Origin: Rugalucina vietnamica
Taxonomy: Eukaryota; Mollusca; Bivalvia; Lucinida; Lucinidae
Length of the DNA stretch: 64,000 nucleotides
Direction of reading: 5' to 3'
Assembly: GCA_964017185.1 (NCBI GenBank)
Contig: OZ024880.1
Coordinates: forward strand, 43,475,071 to 43,539,070
Within the stretch, counting starts at the first letter, position 1, and each line of letters begins with the position of its first letter. The notes below the pieces were generated by a model, which was given only the letters and a program-made list of their open reading frames with translations, was not told the DNA's origin and searched no databases. Below are positions 7,601-43,626 of this stretch, piece by piece. Both the position numbers and the translations under genes were made by a program.

Positions 7601-9599
7601 CATCACTCATTATTACAATCTCACGTGATTTCTCTTATTTTCATTCAGTTTGTCACTGACTTGCTTCAAATAATAATCAAGCCAAAGAATTACGTGGCTT
7701 ATAGCGAACGATCTTGAAACCATATATCGAATGACCAAGGGTACTTGCTACATGTACCTGTGATATGATATTTCTGTTGAAGGAGTGAAGAAGCTACAAA
7801 ATTAAAGTTATCATTATGAAAACTATTTACATTAAATGTTACAGAAAGAAGTAGGAGAAGAAGAAAAAGAAAGAAAAGATGAACACAAAGAAAAACACTT
7901 CCATCGACAGTGTCTCTAATCACTTCGTTGTAAACCAATCTCAAAAGTCCCGGAATTCGTCATAATTTGGTTTCCCTTAACTGTGAATCAAATGTTTCCA
8001 TAGGGTATTTTGCCCATACGAGTATTGTCCTTAATGTCCCACTAACGCCTAGTGTCGCCTGATCATCAGATTTTCTCTCGTCACCCAATGCAGCCTACAT
8101 AGTTCCAATTTGCATAATGACCTGATTAGTTTTCTGGGCTTACATCTACTGTACCATATATTATTTTGCTTATCAGGGCCTCCAACAGAGTATCTGTGTC
8201 TTAACACCTCAATAACTGATAATATGATGAAACCTCCTGCAGATATGTACTTCACCACATTTAAATTGCGAATAATCTTCTACAATGCCATTTCCGGGAA
8301 TTATAGAATAATTGTTTGTATTATTCATATAACTATAATTACCCAGTATATACAATGAAGCATTTCTTCACATGTAAGATCAAACTTTGACCATATACAG
8401 TGTAAATAAATTAAACTAACCATTGTAGTTTCAGCGCACCACGGCATCCCAAACAATCTATCGACATAACTGCCAATTCATGACCATATTCATGAAAAGC
8501 CGTTTCCCAAAGAATGATAAAGCATAATAAGAATAGCGTTATGTCAACAATCGTGGTATTATTCAATAATATTGATGGCATCATAAGCATTATGTTAATA
8601 TGACGTAAAACTTATGAATTTTTTCATATTTACAGCTTTCTTTAGAACCAAATCTATAATGTATACAATCACGATGCAATTATTCAGTAACGTACGTTAA
8701 CGCGAATTAAACATACGTCAACATTAAATTAACGTTGTCCTTACCAGCAGAGTTATACAAATATGCAGAAATTTGTCATTTACAGCATACAATAGACGCA
8801 ATCATTAAAACTTGTGCATTTAAATCCTTGATTCATCGCAAATAAATTCAACATTCATTAAATAATTCAGCACGATTCCAAGCAATCGCAATGCACAAAC
8901 GGAATTTCTTCATAATGCATATTTACAAATGATATCTCAACTTACCGACAGCTGAATCTGGCCGGTTTGCCTGGCATAAACAAGTGCGAAGGTGCACAAT
9001 TTCCAACACCTAACAACGTCAGCACATGCATCTTGAGATTCAAATAACATTCACCAAGAAACAACAGATCGTGCTTGTCAAACTGGTTACAAATTCCAAA
9101 AGAGCCACAGCGAGAAATATTTATTAAGAATTGGTTTCGATGATGTATATTTATCTTCGTATTATATATATATTTGGTAGTCAGTGATTGCTAGGTCATC
9201 TGGCTTACCTGTACTCGGATTCTTTGGGTACTTCATTCATTTTCTTTTGAGAACTCAACAGGGTTCCACCGGAAACATGCTGCTACAGCAGGTAAACCTT
9301 GTGACCATCTTGTCCAGTCACCAAATTGAAATGAAGACATAAAAAGAAAACAATCCTGGCATATAAAAATGTCTCGACCGTACAAAGCAAAATCAACATT
9401 TGGTCCTTCTAACTCGGATTCGTACATGAAACAGACTTGAAGATGTAAGACATAACACTGAAAATAATTCGGTGTCCTTTATGTTTTGTCGTTTTTGGTG
9501 ACAAAATGACAGGTCATACAGAAAATGTCTGGCCATAAATACCCAAAATTAGATGCCTCTTGTATTTATTATTTACTATGTGTTTTATTCTTACCTTCT
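7601..9599. other. No recognisable gene or repeat; upstream region of the sulfotransferase gene
   Basis: About 2 kb of AT-rich sequence. It should contain the promoter and any 5' untranslated exon of the downstream gene, but I see no element that pins a start site. Open frames here, all under 85 codons, show no domain. Confidence 0.5.
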
Positions 9600-9838
9600 C
9601 ATCAGGAAAACATGCCCGTGAAATCCCCCTTATACCTCACTTTTATATATAGTTAAACTGGGGTATGCAGGGGTATACCTATTTTTCTTATTTTTGCTCC
9701 AAAACATAGATTGTGGGTACTAGTTAGAACCGCCTCGCTGAGCAAAAATAAGGAAAATATCAAAAACTTTCTACTAAAAATTTCAATTTTTACAACTACA
9801 AAAATCTCTGTATATTGCATGGACATGTTTTCATAATG
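9600..9838. mobile_element. MITE-1 copy immediately upstream of coding exon 1
   Basis: Starts CATCAGGAAAACATGCCCGT and ends TTGCATGGACATGTTTTCATAATG, the two imperfect terminal inverted repeats of the family. The internal parts are TTATACC...TTTTATATA, GGGGTATACCTATTTTTC, CAAAACATAGATTGTGGGTA and AACCGCCTCG. The internal hairpin is partly deleted. It ends 13 bases before exon position 9852, so the acceptor-like TTGTTCTTTTCAG lies hard against the element. Its last three bases are an ATG in frame with the gene. Confidence 0.85.
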
Positions 9839-9853
9839 TTGTTCTTTTCAGAC

Positions 9854-9941
9854 ATGAAAGCACACTGTTTCCGCTCCGTGGTGTTTCTGGCTGGGCTTCT
9901 TGTAGTTGTTATAATTTTGTTGACATATCAAACAGATAAAG
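9854..9941 (+). CDS. Sulfotransferase coding exon 1 (signal anchor)
   Basis: Encodes MKAHCFRSVVFLAGLLVVVI and the rest of the signal anchor up to YQTDK. The donor is AAAG|GTAAAT. CTTTTCAG directly before AC-ATG looks like a splice acceptor, so a non-coding 5' exon probably lies upstream. Confidence 0.8.
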
Positions 9942-12916
9942 GTAAATATATATGAAAAATAAACATGCTTTACATATACATGTACATGATACATGTTATT
10001 TACAACAATTTTAAATCTGTTAAACGAAGACAACAAAGATCTAGTTGTGAAAATGCAACTGGGAAGACAAAGAAAGCATAAAGATTAATTGCTGAGGAAC
10101 GACAGGAAGAGGACAAATATTTTAGTACTTATGTTGCCAAAAATAAGCCAACACAAACTGTTTTACCTCTACGTCTATAACCAAGGCATGGCTTCGACAA
10201 GTTACCAAAACATACGATATTTTTATCATACACAATACATTTTGATCTTGTAACCATGATAATTTGAATGTAAAAAAATTATAGTTATTGAAACAGGACG
10301 AAGTGCGCTATATGTGTGATAATAGACAAATTTCGTTCAATGTTTCCATAACAATCGCCTCGTAGATAGAAAGTTTGATAAACTCATACATACCAAAACA
10401 AGTCAATGAAATAAATACCCCCTTAAATCCCACTTTTATATATTAAAACTGGGGTATGCCTATTTTTCTTATTTTTGCTCTAAAACATAGATTGTGGTTA
10501 CACAATAGAACCGCCTTGTAGCGGTTCTAACTTGTACCCGCAGCCTATGTTTTGACCAAAAATAAGAAAAATATCAAAAACATTTCCATTGAAAATTTAC
10601 AATTTTCAATTTGTGAAAAATCTGTATATTACATGGGCGTGTTTCGTAATGTGTTTTCAGTGTTCATATACAGAATAAGCTCAGACACCATCTTCATGAG
10701 CCCAGAACAGCGGCCCATTAAACGGGACCAAACGTTTACGGCATGGGCGACGTCAAAATCGACACTCTCGTCCTCTACACCAACACCCAAACCAACACAA
10801 GGTACAGGAATGGGTGTACATGACAGTCAAGAAATAGAAGAAATATATAGAGAAGACATTTCAACTTCTGCTGCTTTGGGTGTTGATGAAGATGTCAGTA
10901 CCTGGGCATCAAAACAGCAGGGTATGAGGCATTTGTTTTAATAACGGACAATGTACATGTATGTATATGCAATACATCAATTAATTATTACTTTCAAACC
11001 AGCGTTATTTTTTTTATCAAATGATGTTTGACAAAAACTAGAATAAGTGCCTTCTTGTACTCGTTGAGAGGCACGTGTACCCCCGGCTAATAGCCCCCAC
11101 TCCCCTTTCCCACCATACACTTAAGCCCATCGCCTCAACCTCCCCCTGGACATGTTCACCATTTTGTTTTAATTAATGAATACACGTAATCGATATTGAA
11201 ATATAAGAACGTTCTTATATCTTCAAACTATATTCACAGAGAAAATACACGTATGTTGCAGGTTTTAAGAACAAAGGAATCAAAGTCTCGTCACGACCAG
11301 GCAATGCCTTCTTGAATCACACATTTGACATTCAATCGATTGGACGCCTACAAAAAGAGTACACACAAACAACAACCAATGTACTGCTAGTTACATACCT
11401 AAGGTCCGGTTCCACATGGCTAGGTGATATAACCCGACAGGCTGAAAACTCCTTCTATGTATATGAACCATTCAAAAACTTGATCAAACAGGGTTATTAC
11501 GCCAACAACTCCGTCTGTTTTAATGACAATACATGCAGGTAAGTGCAAACTCCTTCACAGAGAAAATGTATAAGTTGATATGAAAACACCTGCTGTCTGT
11601 ACACCACCTTTCAGAAACTGCATGTTTCAAAATCTCACTTTTCTGAAACGCCACAAGAAAAATATGACCATAGTACTGAAAAAAAAAAAACAAAAAAAAA
11701 AACAAAAAAAAAAAACGGTACACTCTTAAAAAATTATGTCAAAATTTATTTTGAATAGGCATTTTGCATGTGCATGACTGGTAAACCAAACACCCCAAAA
11801 TAGAAAATCAAACAAATCTGTGGAAACAGTTTACGAATTTGGCATTCAGCTATGCATACAATACAAATTTGTTTTGGTTTGGTGCATTTTTAATGAAAAA
11901 TAACCAATTTAGTTGTTTTTTCCGGAAAAATAGTTACTTTCCTTGCTGACATTCTATAATAGAAAAAAGCCATTTTCAAAATTATTTTCAGACATAAAAT
12001 TTTTATTTTGCAAACCGATTTTCAACTAAACGAACGTGTTTCTATTAAATAGCATTGGTGCATGTTTCAAAGATAAAGCATGCATCTATTTATATGTATT
12101 TGCAGGGGGCCAATAACAGATCACGAGCATGACCAAGTAGCAATAGAAAGCCTTCGCCAAATTTACACATGTGACTTTTTGAACATGAACAAAGTGGTTC
12201 TAAATAATGTAGTGAGATCGCAAATGAAAGACTGTCAACAACTAAGGAGAACTTCACACACATTCGTACCTTTAACGAGACAGATGCAGTTAAGCGAATG
12301 TATAAAGTACACGACACAGAAGTGTTTCCAAGCAAAGTATAGAATTGCGAAAACAATCCGATTTTCAATGGAGCTGATAGAGACACTAATGACGAACGTA
12401 GAGAACCTGAAAGTGATCAACCTCGTTAGAGATCCTCGGGGAATAACAAACAGTCGCGTTCACGGGCGTTACTCCATGACTCTGAATAATGTCGTGCCGC
12501 ATTCAATAAACATGTGTACCCGGATGTATAATGACGTCATAATCGGTGATAGACTAAGAAAGAAATACCCGGATAAATTGGCACTGGTTATGTATGAAGC
12601 TTTGGCTGAAAGACCGATGGAGGGGGCGAGGTATGTGTTCAAGTTTCTGAACGCAACATACAGTGATAAAGTTCAACAATGGGTGTACGATTCCTCACAC
12701 GGAAATTCAAATGGCTTTTATGCAACAACAAGAAATTCGTCCGCTGCGTTATCACACTGGCGCAGCGAACTGACATTCGCACGAATTATATCAATACAAA
12801 ATAATTGTGAAAACCTGTTCAATTTACTCGGGTATATTTCATTCAAAACGATTAGTGATTTGAGAGATTTTGAAAAGAAATCGAGAATCACTGCTTACAG
12901 AAGCGGCTTTTTGTAA
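9854..12916 (+). CDS. Carbohydrate sulfotransferase-like, type II Golgi membrane protein (4 exons, 478 aa)
   Basis: Predicted to transfer sulfate from PAPS to a sugar hydroxyl of a glycan in the Golgi lumen. Coding exons are 9854-9941, 10661-10921, 11262-11538 and 12106-12916. They join in frame (phases 1, 1, 2) with GT-AG introns to give 478 residues. Residues 1-8 are cytosolic, about 9-26 form a signal anchor (VVFLAGLLVVVIILL), and 30-117 are a Ser/Thr/Pro-rich acidic stem. The luminal catalytic domain has the 5'-phosphosulfate loop TYLRSGSTW (161-169) and the 3'-phosphate motif LKVINLVRDPRG (310-321, Arg317, Ser325). The C-terminal RNSS...HWR block and CENLFNLLGY also fit the CHST1-7 (GlcNAc/Gal/GalNAc 6-O) group. 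N-glycosylation sequons NHT, NNS, NAT and NSS are present. Subfamily and substrate cannot be told from sequence alone. An in-frame ATG at 9836, inside MITE-1, is an alternative start. I saw no clear AATAAA signal downstream. Confidence 0.88.
10389..10651. mobile_element. MITE-1 copy at the 3' end of intron 1
   Basis: Left end CATACCAAAACAAGTCAATG is diverged; the right end is ATTACATGGGCGTGTTTCGTAATG. The internal hairpin is ATTGTGGTTACACAATAGAACCGCC against GCGGTTCTAACTTGTACC. It ends 9 bases before the AG of exon 2, so the branch-point region and part of the pyrimidine tract of this intron are MITE sequence. Confidence 0.87.
10661..10921 (+). CDS. Sulfotransferase coding exon 2 (luminal stem)
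   Basis: The acceptor is GTGTTTTCAG|TG and the donor CAGCAGG|GTATGAG. It encodes a stem rich in Ser, Thr, Pro and acidic residues (SSSTPTPKPTQGTG, then SQEIEEIYREDIS). An alternative in-phase acceptor at CTCAG|AC (10685) would shorten it by 8 codons. Confidence 0.72.
11262..11538 (+). CDS. Sulfotransferase coding exon 3 (5'-PAPS loop)
   Basis: The acceptor is TATGTTGCAG|GT and the donor GCAG|GTAAGT, a consensus. It carries LLVTYLRSGSTWLGDI and FYVYEPFKNL, the signature start of the sulfotransferase fold. Confidence 0.85.
11588..12025. mobile_element. Internally deleted copy of foldback element F1 in intron 3
   Basis: Begins CTGCTGTCTGTACACCACCT and matches 136-420. It then jumps to sequence like 985-1085 (TTTTTCCGGAAAAATAGTTACT, AACCGATTTTCA) and ends without the outer right arm. 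An A-rich stretch (11681-11714) interrupts it. Confidence 0.75.
12106..12916 (+). CDS. Sulfotransferase coding exon 4 (3'-phosphate motif to stop)
   Basis: The acceptor is TGTATTTGCAG|G, and the exon continues in frame to TAA at 12914-12916. It holds the 3'-phosphate motif, the YEALAERPMEGARYVFKFLN helix segment and the C-terminal substrate-lobe residues. Confidence 0.85.
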
Positions 12917-24119: not shown

Positions 24120-24399
24120 CATTACGAAAACTTGCCCATGCAATATACAGAGATTTTTTAGCTTTAAACATTGAAAATTTTCAGCTGAAAAATTTTAATA
24201 GTTTTCTTATTTTTGCTCAAAACATAGATTGTGGGTACACGTTAGAACCGCCTCGCCGAGGCGGTTCTAACGAGTACCCACAATCTATGTTTTGGAGCAA
24301 AAATAAGAAAAATAGGTATACGCCCTTAAACCCCAGTTTTTTTCTATATAAAAGTGGTGTTCAAGGGGGTATACATTACACGGACATGTTTGCATGATG
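24120..24399. mobile_element. MITE-1 reference copy with 8-bp target duplication
   Basis: The most complete copy. Ends are CATTACGAAAACTTGCCCAT and ACGGACATGTTTGCATGATG. The inner palindrome is GTGGGTACACGTTAGAACCG with apex CCTCGCCGAGG and return arm CGGTTCTAACGAGTACCCAC. GAATGCAT directly precedes (24112-24119) and follows (24400-24407) the element. CA...TG termini and 8-bp duplications are typical of hAT-type elements, but no transposase is present to confirm it. Confidence 0.92.
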
Positions 24400-34806: not shown

Positions 34807-35072
34807 CATCATGAAAGCATGTCCGTGTAATGTATACCCCCTTGAACCCCACTTTTATATAGCAAAACTGGGCTATGCTAGGGTATACCTATTTTTCTTA
34901 TTTTGCTCCATGGGTACTCGTTAGAACCGCCTCGGTGAAGCGGTTCTAATGTGTACCCACAATCTATGTTTTGAGCAAAAATAAGAAAAGTATCAAAAGT
35001 TTTCAACTGAAAATTTTCAATTTTTAAAGCTCAAAAAATCTCTGTATATTGCATGGGCAAGTTTTCGTAATG
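34807..35072. mobile_element. MITE-1 copy in duplication A
   Basis: Ends CATCATGAAAGCATGTCCGT and GCATGGGCAAGTTTTCGTAATG with the full hairpin. Its counterpart is at 39099-39355, so this insertion predates the duplication. Confidence 0.9.
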
Positions 35073-39098: not shown

Positions 39099-39355
39099 CA
39101 TCATGAAAGCATGTCCGTGTAATGTATACCCCCTTGAACCCCACTTTTATATAGCAAAACTGGGCTATGCAGGGGTATACCTATTTTTCTTATTTCGCTC
39201 CATGGGAACTCGTTAGAACCGCCTCGGCGAAGCGGTTCTTATGTGTACCCACAATCTATGTTTTGAGCAAAAATAAGAAAAGTATCAAAAGTTTTCAACT
39301 GAAATTTTGAAGCTCAAAAAATCTCTGTATATTGCATAGGCAAGTTTTCGTTATG
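39099..39355. mobile_element. MITE-1 copy in duplication B
   Basis: CATCATGAAAGCATGTCCGT to TTTTCGTTATG; counterpart of 34807-35072. Confidence 0.9.
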
Positions 39356-39758: not shown

Positions 39759-41088
39759 TTACTAGCTGTAATTTGGATTGTTTTTCTCATATTGTCAGAC
39801 TTTTTCTATCGTACGTATCAGTTCCTGGGCATTTAGTTTCTCATATTACATCTACGGATTTTTTATATACCAGTAACGAGTAATTCTCATGATTTCCACG
39901 AAGGGTCATCGTCCTGGTGGATAAACATATTTATTTTCATTGTTTTCATGTCCCACTTACATTACCAAAATTCAGCGGGATGCTCATGTCTAGGACAATT
40001 TTCTTAGCATTTTCTAGATATTACACACACTGTAAAAGCTTTGTACTTCAGATCTGGAATAAGTGACCACTATAAACCTGACTCTTATTGCTGTAAAAGA
40101 AAATAATCGCAATCAGATACAAATTGTACTTTTGAATGATTGATAAGACATGTATAGTGCCCTAAAGCACATAAACTGGTTTTTGAATAAGATATAGAAC
40201 ATTACAGAAACACAACACACATTTTTATGTACATGTATCTACTCTACTCACTAAACATGCTAAAACTGCATGATGAGCACAGAAACTAAGTCCTCGGGAA
40301 TAATGAATACTTCGACTTTTCCTCGAGTAAACCCATGCTTAAAACGCCACCCTCTTGGTACACTGTGGCAGGTATTTTCCGTAATTTATTGTTTGTAATG
40401 TTTTATATGGTTTTATGCGTGTATGTATGCACACGCCACGTGACCTTACACGCCACATGACCGAATAGCATCGTCGTTTGTTTTTGTCACATAAAGAGGA
40501 CATCAGACTTGTGGCCAGAACTTTTATACCAGTTTTACGTAAGAACAGAAACAATCGATAATTTTATTTGTTGATAAAAAGCTTACAGTACAAGCTTAAT
40601 GATAAACAAGTGTTTGGGTCCTTATCCAGCCAGCATGTTTGTCCATTCTGCTGAAAGTACCACTTAGATTAATTGCAGGGAAGAAAATGGGTCGGAAGTA
40701 ATTTTCTATATTAGGACAATTGGAAAGTAGCCTTGAACAGCGTTCTTTCAATGTAACTCATTGTAATATTTGTTCCACATTTTCAGACCATTCTATGCGT
40801 CCCGTCTACATTATCAAGTTTATTTCCCCATAAGTCTAAAATGTAAAAGGGAAATACATGTATAACGAAAGTGGTAGAATCACCTGCACTCAACCAACAA
40901 AGCTAGTCGCATGATATCGAGGACAACAGACATACCAAGAAGTGTGACAAAAAATATAGCAGCTCGTAGACAGGATAACATGTCTTGATATGTATACCCC
41001 CTTAAAACCCATTTTTATATAGCAAAACTGGGGTATGGAGAGGTGTACCTATTTTTCTTATTTTTGCTCGAAACAATAAACTGATGGC

Positions 41089-42276
41089 CTAGGTGACCAT
41101 GACATGGTCACTGCTTCCTGTGCTCTTAAGCCCTCCATTCAGAAACAGAAACCTCGAAAAGTCCCACTTCTCAACAAAGCGGACTGGCCCAAATTAAAAT
41201 CTCTCATGAGGGATTATCAGAAAAAGTTCCTGCTCAACCATGCAAATAGATCAGTTGAGGAACTCTGGTCTGATTTTGTCACAACACTAGAGGCTTTTAC
41301 CTCAAAGTGTATCCCCACTAAGATTATCCGAGGTAAATGTTCCCTACCTTGGATTACCCAGAGCATTCGCAGACAGATTAGGCGCAGAGATGATTTATAC
41401 AGGAAATTCAAAAAGACTGGAGACCAGACATTTCGTGATAAGTTCCTTGCCCTCCGTAAAAACATTAAACACAACATTAAGTCTTCTTATAACTTATACC
41501 TTGAAGGTCTCCTTGGCATAACTGATGAAAACTCTGCCTGCAGCAATAAAAAGTTATTCTCATTTCTTAAGAGCGCTAAGCAGGACCAGACTGGCTCACC
41601 TCCTCTCCAAAACAAAAACGGACTCGCAACTGACACCACTGAAAAAGCTGACATACATAACCAACAGTTTCAGTCAGTTTTCACTACCAAGGCACCCCTG
41701 TCACTCTCTCGACTGTGTAAGACACAAATCCAGGACATGGTAGATTGTGGTACATTGCGTCATGACGCAGTACCAGAAGGCATTCTCACCTCCAACCCCA
41801 AAATGGAAGAGTTTACCATCTCCTGCAATGGCATTTTAAAGCTCCTTCAAAACCTGAAACCCTTCAAGGCAGCCGGTCCAGATAAGCTCAAACCATTCTT
41901 GCTCAGAGAACTGCGGGAGGAAATTGCTCCAATTATTCAAATCATCTTTGAGCGCTCTCTCCAGACAGGCAAACTCCCGGCAGACTGGTGTAAAGCACAA
42001 GTCACACCAATCTTTAAGAAGGGAAATAAATCATCTGCTGCCAACTACAGACCCATATCCCTGACTTGCATACTTTGTAAGGTCCTCGAGCATATCATCG
42101 CTTCACATGTGGTAAAGCACCTCAATGCACATGATCTCCTGTATGATTTACAACATGGCTTTAGGGAGAAGAGGTCATGCGAGACACAGCTTACAATGTT
42201 GGTCGAGGACCTTGCCAGGAATGTGAGTAAAGGTAAACAGACTGACTTGATACTGTTGGATTTTTCAAAGGCTTTT
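41089..42276 (+). pseudogene. LINE ORF2 protein, N-terminal half (endonuclease end to RT motif A)
   Basis: This uninterrupted frame encodes the linker after the endonuclease and the first RT blocks: FKAAGPDKLKPFLLRELREE, WCKAQVTPIFKKGNKSSAAN, YRPISLTCILCKVLEHII, LQHGFREKRSCETQLTMLV and LILLDFSKAF. The frame breaks exactly after the Phe of motif A, where the Penelope tail is inserted; the catalytic Asp of FSKAFD begins the second half. The protein type (APE endonuclease, RT with PISL/FADD motifs) fits the Jockey/CR1/Rex group. The finer clade is not decided. Confidence 0.9.
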
Positions 42277-42570
42277 TGTTACTGATCGTTCCAAGTCGAT
42301 ACTTCTGTGGTGGTTCTTTTTGTTTTGTGTCTTGGTGTTTAAATTTTTTTTTGTGCTGTTGGCGCCTTATGTGTGTTTTCGTGTTTTTAGTTAAGTTAAG
42401 GTAACTGAGTGGCCACCTATTGGGAAAATAGCTGCTCATTCGGCTTACGATATGTTTCATGGTATAAGTACCTGACTGTTGGTTTGGTTTTTTCCCACCT
42501 CGGTTTTTGGAGTGGGAGTCTTTTTCTGATTGCGCCTTTTCCTGATCTTTGCCTACTTGTACCTTTTTTT
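42277..42570 (+). mobile_element. Penelope-like 3' tail inside the LINE reverse transcriptase
   Basis: Starts GTTACTGATCGTTCCAAGTC and ends CTTGTACCTTTTTTT, 294 bp. It lies between the codons TTT and GAT of the LINE. Both the target and the tail end in T runs, so a short T target duplication (3-4 bp) is possible but cannot be delimited. Confidence 0.93.
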
Positions 42571-43626
42571 GATAAAGTGAATCACTCCAAACTCCTTTGG
42601 AAACTCCACCAGTATGGAATCAGAGGACACGCACTTGCCTGGATCCGTGCCTTCTTGGGAAACCGGTCGCAGACGGTGGTCCTTGATGGAGAGGAATCAG
42701 AATCGGTCCCTGTGACTTCTGGGGTACCCCAGGGCTCAGTCCTTGGGCCGATCCTGTTTCTAATCTATATCAATGACCTGCCGGATGAACTGTCATCACA
42801 GGTTCGACTATTTGCAGATGACACGGCCGTGTACCTGACAATTGGAGATACGGAGGATGGCAAAGTGCTACAAAATGACCTGGACAGACTAGCTGCGTGG
42901 GAGGACAGGTGGGACATGGAATTCAACCCCTCTAAGTGCCAGGTGGTACGGGTGACAACATCCAGGAAACTTATTAACGTAACTTACACTTTACATGGCC
43001 AAGTCCTGGAGGTTGTCACAAGTGCAAAGTACTTGGGGGTTGATATCTCCAATGGCCTATCCTGGAATCCCCACATAGACCACATTACTAAAACTGCCAC
43101 CAGGACGCTAAACTTTATCCAACGGGACATAAAAACAAAGAATCAAAAGGTACGAGAGACTGCCTATAATACACTGGTCCGCCCTCAGCTGGAGTATGCC
43201 GCCCCAGTTTGGGACCCACACACTAAGGAGAAGGTACTCCATCTGGAAAAAGTACAACGCAGGGCAGCACGCTGGACCACCAGCAATTACGACTACCGGT
43301 CAAGCACTACTGCCACTGTTAATAACCTTGGATGGAGAACGCTTGAATTACGACGGGCAGATGCGCGTCTAGTACTATTCTTCAAAATAGTACATGGCCT
43401 TGTCGCTGTACCCCTTCCTGATTATATCCACCCTCCAAACAGAATTTCTAGGCATTGCCATTCAATGACATTCCAACAACTCCAGACTACCCAAAACTAC
43501 TACAAATACTCCTTCTTTCCACTGGTGATTGTCCAGTGGAATGCCCTCCCTGCAGATGTTGCAAGCTTACCAGACCTTGATTCCTTCAAGGTTACAGTCA
43601 GTAAGCTGCAACATTCCAGGCCGTAG
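42571..43626 (+). pseudogene. LINE ORF2 protein, C-terminal half (RT motif A to stop)
   Basis: Resumes DKVNHSKLLWKLHQYGIRGH, then SGVPQGSVLGPILFLIYIND (motif B), VRLFADDTAVY (motif C, catalytic Asp-Asp intact) and SAKYLGVDISNGLSWNPHID. The thumb region with RPQLEYAAPVWDPH follows, ending at TAG 43624-43626. The 352 codons contain no internal stop, so the inserted Penelope tail is the only lesion between this half and the upstream one. The first 162 bases of the longer open frame (from 42409) are Penelope sequence, not LINE. Confidence 0.92.

Follow-up and report, generated by a model that had tools for sequence, protein, structure and literature searches.

Two copies of a MITE-like repeat lie just ahead of predicted acceptor sites in a sulfotransferase gene of the bivalve Rugalucina vietnamica

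The 64,000 nt of genomic DNA analysed here (the window) hold a predicted gene of four exons with compatible phases (Table 1). Joined and translated from the window, they give a product of 478 aa. It matches Pfam Sulfotransfer_1 (PF00685, E 2.9e-13, 50.3 bits vs a cut-off of 22), i.e. the domain of a carbohydrate-type sulfotransferase gene is present. A PDB search with the predicted protein gave zero matches at E ≤ 1. Two copies of a repeat, MITE-1, lie within this locus. Copy A is located upstream of exon 1 and copy B occupies about 268 nt of the predicted intron 1 (9942-10660, 719 nt).

Table 1. Predicted exons and MITE-1 features in the window, and Pfam matches of open frames that follow MITE-1 3' ends elsewhere in the genome.
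Feature	Position	Strand	Remark
CTTAC in the left flank of copy A	9590..9594	+	branch-point-like (YTNAY); candidate function
MITE-1 copy A	9600..9838	+	complete (CATCAGG...CATAATG); 25-nt imperfect terminal inverted repeats
Terminal ATG of copy A	9836..9838	+	in frame with ATG 9854; intronic if 9851 is used
Host remnant of putative 3' splice site, exon 1	9839..9851	+	TTGTTCTTTTCAG
Exon 1, coding part	9854..9941	+	predicted signal anchor; phase 1 end, then GTAAAT
MITE-1 copy B	10384..10651	+	5' end blurred (10384-10395), 3' end ...CGTAATG; from BLAST and alignment
Host remnant of predicted 3' splice site, exon 2	10652..10660	+	TGTTTTCAG
Exon 2	10661..10921	+	phase 1-1; predicted stem region, beyond the Pfam domain
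Exon 3	11262..11538	+	carries the TYLRSGSTWLG region
Exon 4, including stop codon	12106..12916	+	holds the sulfotransferase domain
L075			Med7, E 1.4e-38
L090			PGK, E 4.3e-13
L097			kelch, E 5.6e-11
L119			KshA_C, E 3.3e-10
L016			Ig, E ≤ 1e-3
L101			TMEM232, E 5.6e-5; under Pfam's own cut-off
L080			IBR_1, E 1.3e-4; under Pfam's own cut-off
L012			Xan_ur_permease, E 9.9e-4; under Pfam's own cut-off; SLC23 in PDB, E 0.002

BLAST with copies A and B as queries detected about 16 copies or fragments of MITE-1 in the window. An alignment was made of ten complete copies, 210-282 nt long; their first letters are CATCA or a variant thereof (blurred in B), and all ten end in ATG, mostly as TAATG. Pairwise identities of 74-96% indicate that the family is old. 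The 25-nt terminal arms of copy A (9600-9624 and 9814-9838) are 80% complementary. An initial search of the genome (1.09 Gb, 47 contigs) returned 6,715 candidates. MITE-1 thus is a short (overall about 210-280 bp), non-autonomous, non-coding, high-copy element with terminal inverted repeats, as expected of a MITE. We use the term as a label of form only, since a target-site duplication of fixed length was absent: among 99 distinct complete copies an abutting 8-bp repeat was found in one and other exact repeats of 6-9 bp in none. This is odd for a cut-and-paste element. Duplications of about 27-35 bp, absent from shuffled pairs, flank three of the 99 copies (L007, L032, L095); the remaining copies lack either kind. 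A derivation from P or hAT transposons, hinted at by the terminal CAT...ATG and the 8-bp repeat of the copy at 24120-24399, was discarded because an 8-bp duplication occurred in one of the 99 copies.

Copy A ends at 9838 and the next AG is at 9850-9851, i.e. 13 nt to its last base. Copy B ends at 10651, followed by AG at 10659-10660, i.e. 9 nt. These positions are as the first-pass annotation had claimed. It had also considered the two insertions to be independent, which held up. Copies A and B are 80.8% identical to each other, and each is closer to another copy (A to L002, 91.6%; B to c57, 83.6%), although node support in the tree was low (0.46 and 0.76 at the relevant nodes). From this sequence comparison we take A and B to be independent insertions in the same orientation, each just ahead of a predicted acceptor in one gene. 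A duplication of a single acceptor-plus-MITE unit was rejected on the same grounds. The ATG at 9836 shares its frame with ATG 9854 (MLFFSDMKAHCF) and had been proposed as an alternative start. It is, however, the terminal ATG of the family, present in all ten complete window copies. Because it becomes intronic and is spliced out when 9851 is used, such a start and a used acceptor exclude each other.

We infer the putative acceptor at 9851 from TTGTTCTTTTCAG directly ahead of AC-ATG. Conceivably, the gene model is in error. Exon 1 may begin within or upstream of MITE-1 without an acceptor at 9851, and exon 2 may be no exon. The model was derived from sequence alone, the sole sign of the exon 1 acceptor is TTCTTTTCAG before AC-ATG, and exon 2, having phase 1-1, can be skipped without a frameshift so that exons 1 and 3 join directly in frame. 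Moreover, the frame of exon 2 stays open upstream into copy B as far as 10531, so the frame by itself does not fix the exon border. Yet exon 2 has 261 nt, is open, fits the phases on both sides and has strong splice signals (phase check and home-made score), and haemoglobin genes of the ark clams Barbatia and Anadara have introns 1-2 nt ahead of the start codon, according to the passages on these genes in PMC4732748. Thus, the layout proposed for exon 1 has a precedent, and we consider a wrong model improbable.

Did the acceptors precede the insertions? The flanks of copy A were joined to reconstruct the empty site, TTTTATTCTTACCTTCT/TTGTTCTTTTCAG/ACATG. It has an unbroken pyrimidine tract and CTTAC about 20 nt ahead of exon 1. 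The acceptor score used was home-made; its frequencies are general approximations rather than values trained on this genome. On this scale the site of A scored 14.3 empty vs 11.2 filled. Because removal of A restores a textbook 3' splice site, the acceptor of exon 1 looks older than the insertion. The site of B scored 10.2 filled vs 7.6-9.6 empty, the range being set by the placement of the blurred 5' end; here the order of acceptor and insertion is ambiguous from the sequence.

The best reading, which we hold to be somewhat better than an even bet, is insertion into existing acceptor regions, with the tail of the element taking over the branch-point zone. Two pre-existing 3' splice sites would each have received a MITE-1 copy, downstream of the branch point and upstream of the AG, and the AG with 9-13 nt of host pyrimidine tract would have survived each insertion. 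The original branch-point zone would have been shifted about 240-270 nt upstream. We infer that both acceptors are used and that, because of this displacement, the branch point must now lie in the terminal part of each element. That MITE-1 now provides branch point and pyrimidine tract, as suggested in the first-pass annotation, is plausible because just 9-13 nt of host DNA are left.

Alternatively, the element itself may create the acceptor: its tail would furnish branch point and pyrimidine tract and any nearby downstream CAG would turn into a 3' splice site. The higher score of B in the filled state is in line with this, and the geometry leaves but 9-13 nt of host DNA. At A, however, the empty site beats the filled one. 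Further, the exons confirmed elsewhere (see below) come from ancient, conserved genes, PGK and Med7 among them, whose introns presumably predate MITE-1, and the left flanks of seven confirmed loci are acceptor-like, if anything. We regard this alternative as very unlikely.

The pair might also be a product of chance. Among tens of thousands of copies, a number are bound to precede acceptors, and this pair was noticed for sharing one gene. Among random points in the window 2.5% have an AG scoring ≥10 at 5-14 nt downstream. Such an AG follows the 3' end in two of the ten complete copies, namely A (11.2) and B (10.2), a count made post hoc. When both ends of 13 copies were scored, one 5' end (c62) also had such an AG (score 10.7, 8 nt) with no known gene, so acceptor-like AGs near MITE-1 ends do arise by chance.

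The counts that follow cover the whole genome. The 5' end of MITE-1 was described by GTTTKCMTGATG and the 3' end by GTTTTCRTAATG, whose 12 letters were matched exactly; this favours preserved copies. TTTYAG at 1-12 nt past GTTTTCRTAATG was found 897 times (491 + 406; whole genome, exact pattern). At the same distance the reverse-complement control CTRAAA occurred 615 times (324 + 291) and the T-rich non-acceptor control TTTYAC 739 times (363 + 376). The distance control, TTTYAG at 31-42 nt, gave 711 (341 + 370). The excess of TTTYAG near the end had a z of 4.6 against the far distance and of 7.3 against the CTRAAA mirror. Background frequencies, taken from fetched sequence amounting to 434,500 strand-positions, were 568 TTTYAG and 527 TTTYAC; scaled by TTTYAC, the excess was 100 with an sd of 64, i.e. 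under 2 sd. Part of the excess is T-richness, as the 739 TTTYAC demonstrate. The proposed preference of the element for T-rich pre-acceptor DNA is weakly supported, TTTYAC near the end being about 12% commoner than the far TTTYAG count predicts. The excess may reflect a T-rich target preference in one orientation, a filter that tolerates just this orientation, or functional ends being better preserved.

Next, we asked what follows the AG. The sample comprised 90 of the 897 TTTYAG places (30 loci and the next 60 listed), the first on contigs C1-C2 and hence non-random. The best-scoring open frame past the AG was scanned with Pfam if 20 aa or longer, which applied to 73 of 90. Eight of the 90 places matched host-gene families at E ≤ 1e-3 (Table 1); we take the KshA_C match to be Neverland-like. 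L014, which is outside this count, matches C1GALT1 (PDB 7q4i, E 4.8e-9). PDB searches with the exons of L034 and L105 gave zero matches, and Pfam on ten ORFs past CTRAAA returned weak matches only, all to one poly-isoleucine ORF. The background consisted of TTTYAG sites flanking these loci, treated identically in two sets. The first gave 1 of 90 (67 scanned; FANCI) with two weaker matches at E 0.004-0.005; the second gave 2 of 182 (145 scanned; ATP-synt_Eps, and DUF678 at 8e-4) with one more at 0.004.

Accordingly, Pfam recognised a coding exon past the AG in 8/90 MITE-1 places vs 3/272 background sites (p 0.0009). Removal of three duplicate places left 8/87 (p 0.0008). At E ≤ 0.01 the contrast was 8/90 vs 6/272 (p 0.009), and at Pfam's curated cut-offs 5/90 vs 2/272 (p 0.012), where passing was assumed for both background matches and for the trimmed Ig member. 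An amino-acid score of ≥12 was reached by 6/90 vs 11/885 (p 0.003) and of ≥9 by 10/90 vs 41/885 (p 0.014). This suggests that, compared with background TTTYAG sites, MITE-1 3' ends precede a coding exon at a several-fold higher rate; the over-representation is supported at roughly the 1-in-100 to 1-in-1000 level. Chance does not sit well with this contrast or with the 897 vs 711 sites by distance, although each count is modest and the surplus over TTTYAC is small; as the whole explanation we consider it rather unlikely. The idea that exons had been recruited together with the element found no support: the downstream exons are parts of different genes, among them Med7, PGK, kelch and Ig, and no exon sequence is common to the copy ends; exon shuffling with MITE-1 was rejected likewise.

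Are the elements at confirmed loci special? The terminal 24 nt were conserved at a mean of 21.2 positions in nine confirmed loci vs 18.5 in 30 CTRAAA loci (small n, raw values), whereas the 5' ends were alike (22.0 vs 22.6 of 25). The left flanks had a pyrimidine content of 0.60 in seven complete confirmed loci vs 0.50 in 19 CTRAAA loci (small n, raw values), and YTNAY was present in 5/7 vs 6/19 of them (raw counts). Tail conservation and flank composition hint at a function, and at insertion where a splice site already existed. The same data bear on a preservation bias. Insertion would be random; ends that serve as branch point or pyrimidine tract would keep the exact 12-mer, and neutral copies would decay out of the count. 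The somewhat better kept tails next to similar 5' ends agree with this, as does the identity of merely 74-96% among window copies, which makes exact ends a minority, and copy B lies ahead of an acceptor without having the exact 12-mer. Numbers are small, however, and when seven likely loci were added the tail mean dropped to 19.75, near the 19.15 of other TTTYAG loci. We view a preservation bias as possible, if on the unlikely side.

The end of the element lay exactly 10 nt upstream of the exon in 7 of 16 confirmed or likely loci (p 0.002, corrected for 12 distances); for confirmed loci alone it was 4 of 9 (p 0.05) and for listed places 15 of 100 (p 0.22). The seven would fit a fixed spacing, as if MITE-1 were a portable branch-point element that inserts preferentially between a branch point and its AG and delivers a usable branch point of its own, which would account for the over-representation of its 3' end shortly ahead of acceptors. 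More than 100 host introns would then splice through MITE-1. This extension of the insertion reading we consider unlikely.

Insertions directly before acceptors are expected to be purged because they separate the branch point from the AG. In the literature searched, with few subscription papers covered, a repeat family over-represented just before acceptors was not found among the matches listed. At this locus the observation itself is sound; the main interest lies in the genome-wide over-representation before coding exons. A repeat enriched there would test the minimal host sequence required for a 3' splice site, and it would illustrate how a transposon can remodel the 3' portions of numerous introns while leaving the proteins unchanged.

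Elements of this kind have been described in molluscs. Introns of Lucina pectinata haemoglobin genes contain MITE-like elements (PMC4732748) and MITEs are part of bivalve mobilomes (PMC10294476). Going by the descriptions in the passages concerned, MITE-1 resembles these and other animal MITEs in being short, AT-rich, high-copy, non-coding and intronic with inverted repeats; the likeness is one of description alone, and those passages place elements in introns or promoters but mention no site directly ahead of an acceptor. Introners, as characterized in PMC9860276, are non-autonomous DNA elements as well, with inverted repeats, in some cases without target duplications, and with a placement that involves splice sites. 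In contrast to MITE-1, an introner makes up a whole intron and supplies or generates the splice sites. Copy B accounts for about 268 nt of intron 1 (719 nt), and the acceptors seem to derive from host DNA; MITE-1 in its present state is therefore not an introner. In mulberry, MITEs were tied to alternative splicing via exonization, as reported in PMC6593561. An effect on the choice of 3' splice sites would be common to both, yet parts of the mulberry elements are retained in mRNA, whereas MITE-1 would leave with the intron, serving as its 3' region.

A further property of the tails was considered as a mark of selection. Before the end of the element A and B have AG-free stretches of 86 and 85 nt, respectively, vs 11-39 nt in the remaining eight complete copies of the window. 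AG-free tails of at least 79 nt occurred, however, in 9 of 44 ends (L001-L038, A included), among them close relatives of A, and about equally in TTTYAG and CTRAAA loci (4/30 vs 3/30). The candidate was dropped. Human introns have AG exclusion zones and distant branch points (PMC1431707, PMC7317903). Unlike those zones, the AG-free tail of MITE-1 is a trait that some members of the family inherited and is unlinked to acceptors. As in the human introns with distant branch points, the absence of AG from the stretch that separates branch point and acceptor would allow splicing to pass the inserted sequence.

The layout of exon 1 of the predicted sulfotransferase gene, i.e. a MITE-1 end followed by an AG and directly by an ATG frame, recurs at L105, a locus sampled elsewhere in the genome. 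There, on the minus strand, this abundant non-autonomous repeat ends 16 nt upstream of an AG which precedes ATGGGTTCC, and the ATG frame follows that AG directly. The frame presumably resembles HSPA12; a PDB search with the exon frame gave no match.

Duplications of about 27-35 bp were found beside the MITE-1 ends in three of the 99 complete copies examined. A single copy in the window (24120-24399) is flanked by an 8 bp duplication, and none was detected at the remaining ones. Such a mix of lengths, including none, is unusual within one family. Two further window copies, 34807-35072 and 39099-39355, are 96% identical and have common flanks, and hence represent a segmental duplication, not separate insertions. 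The two open frames of a retroelement in the window are separated by other sequence.

Retroelement frames and MITE-1 copies with flanking duplications
Feature	Location	Basis
Reverse-transcriptase-like open frames of retroelement	window 41080-42285 and 42409-43626	open-frame reading
MITE-1 copy, ~27-35 bp flanking duplication	L007:1150-1428	
MITE-1 copy, ~27-35 bp flanking duplication	L032:1233-1512	
MITE-1 copy, ~27-35 bp flanking duplication	L095 (centre)	

The flank adjoining the 5' end of copy A, the complete MITE-1 before exon 1, carries AGAAG/GTAAGA on the minus strand (window 9589-9599). By sequence this strongly resembles a splice donor, and it lies 5 nt away from the copy.
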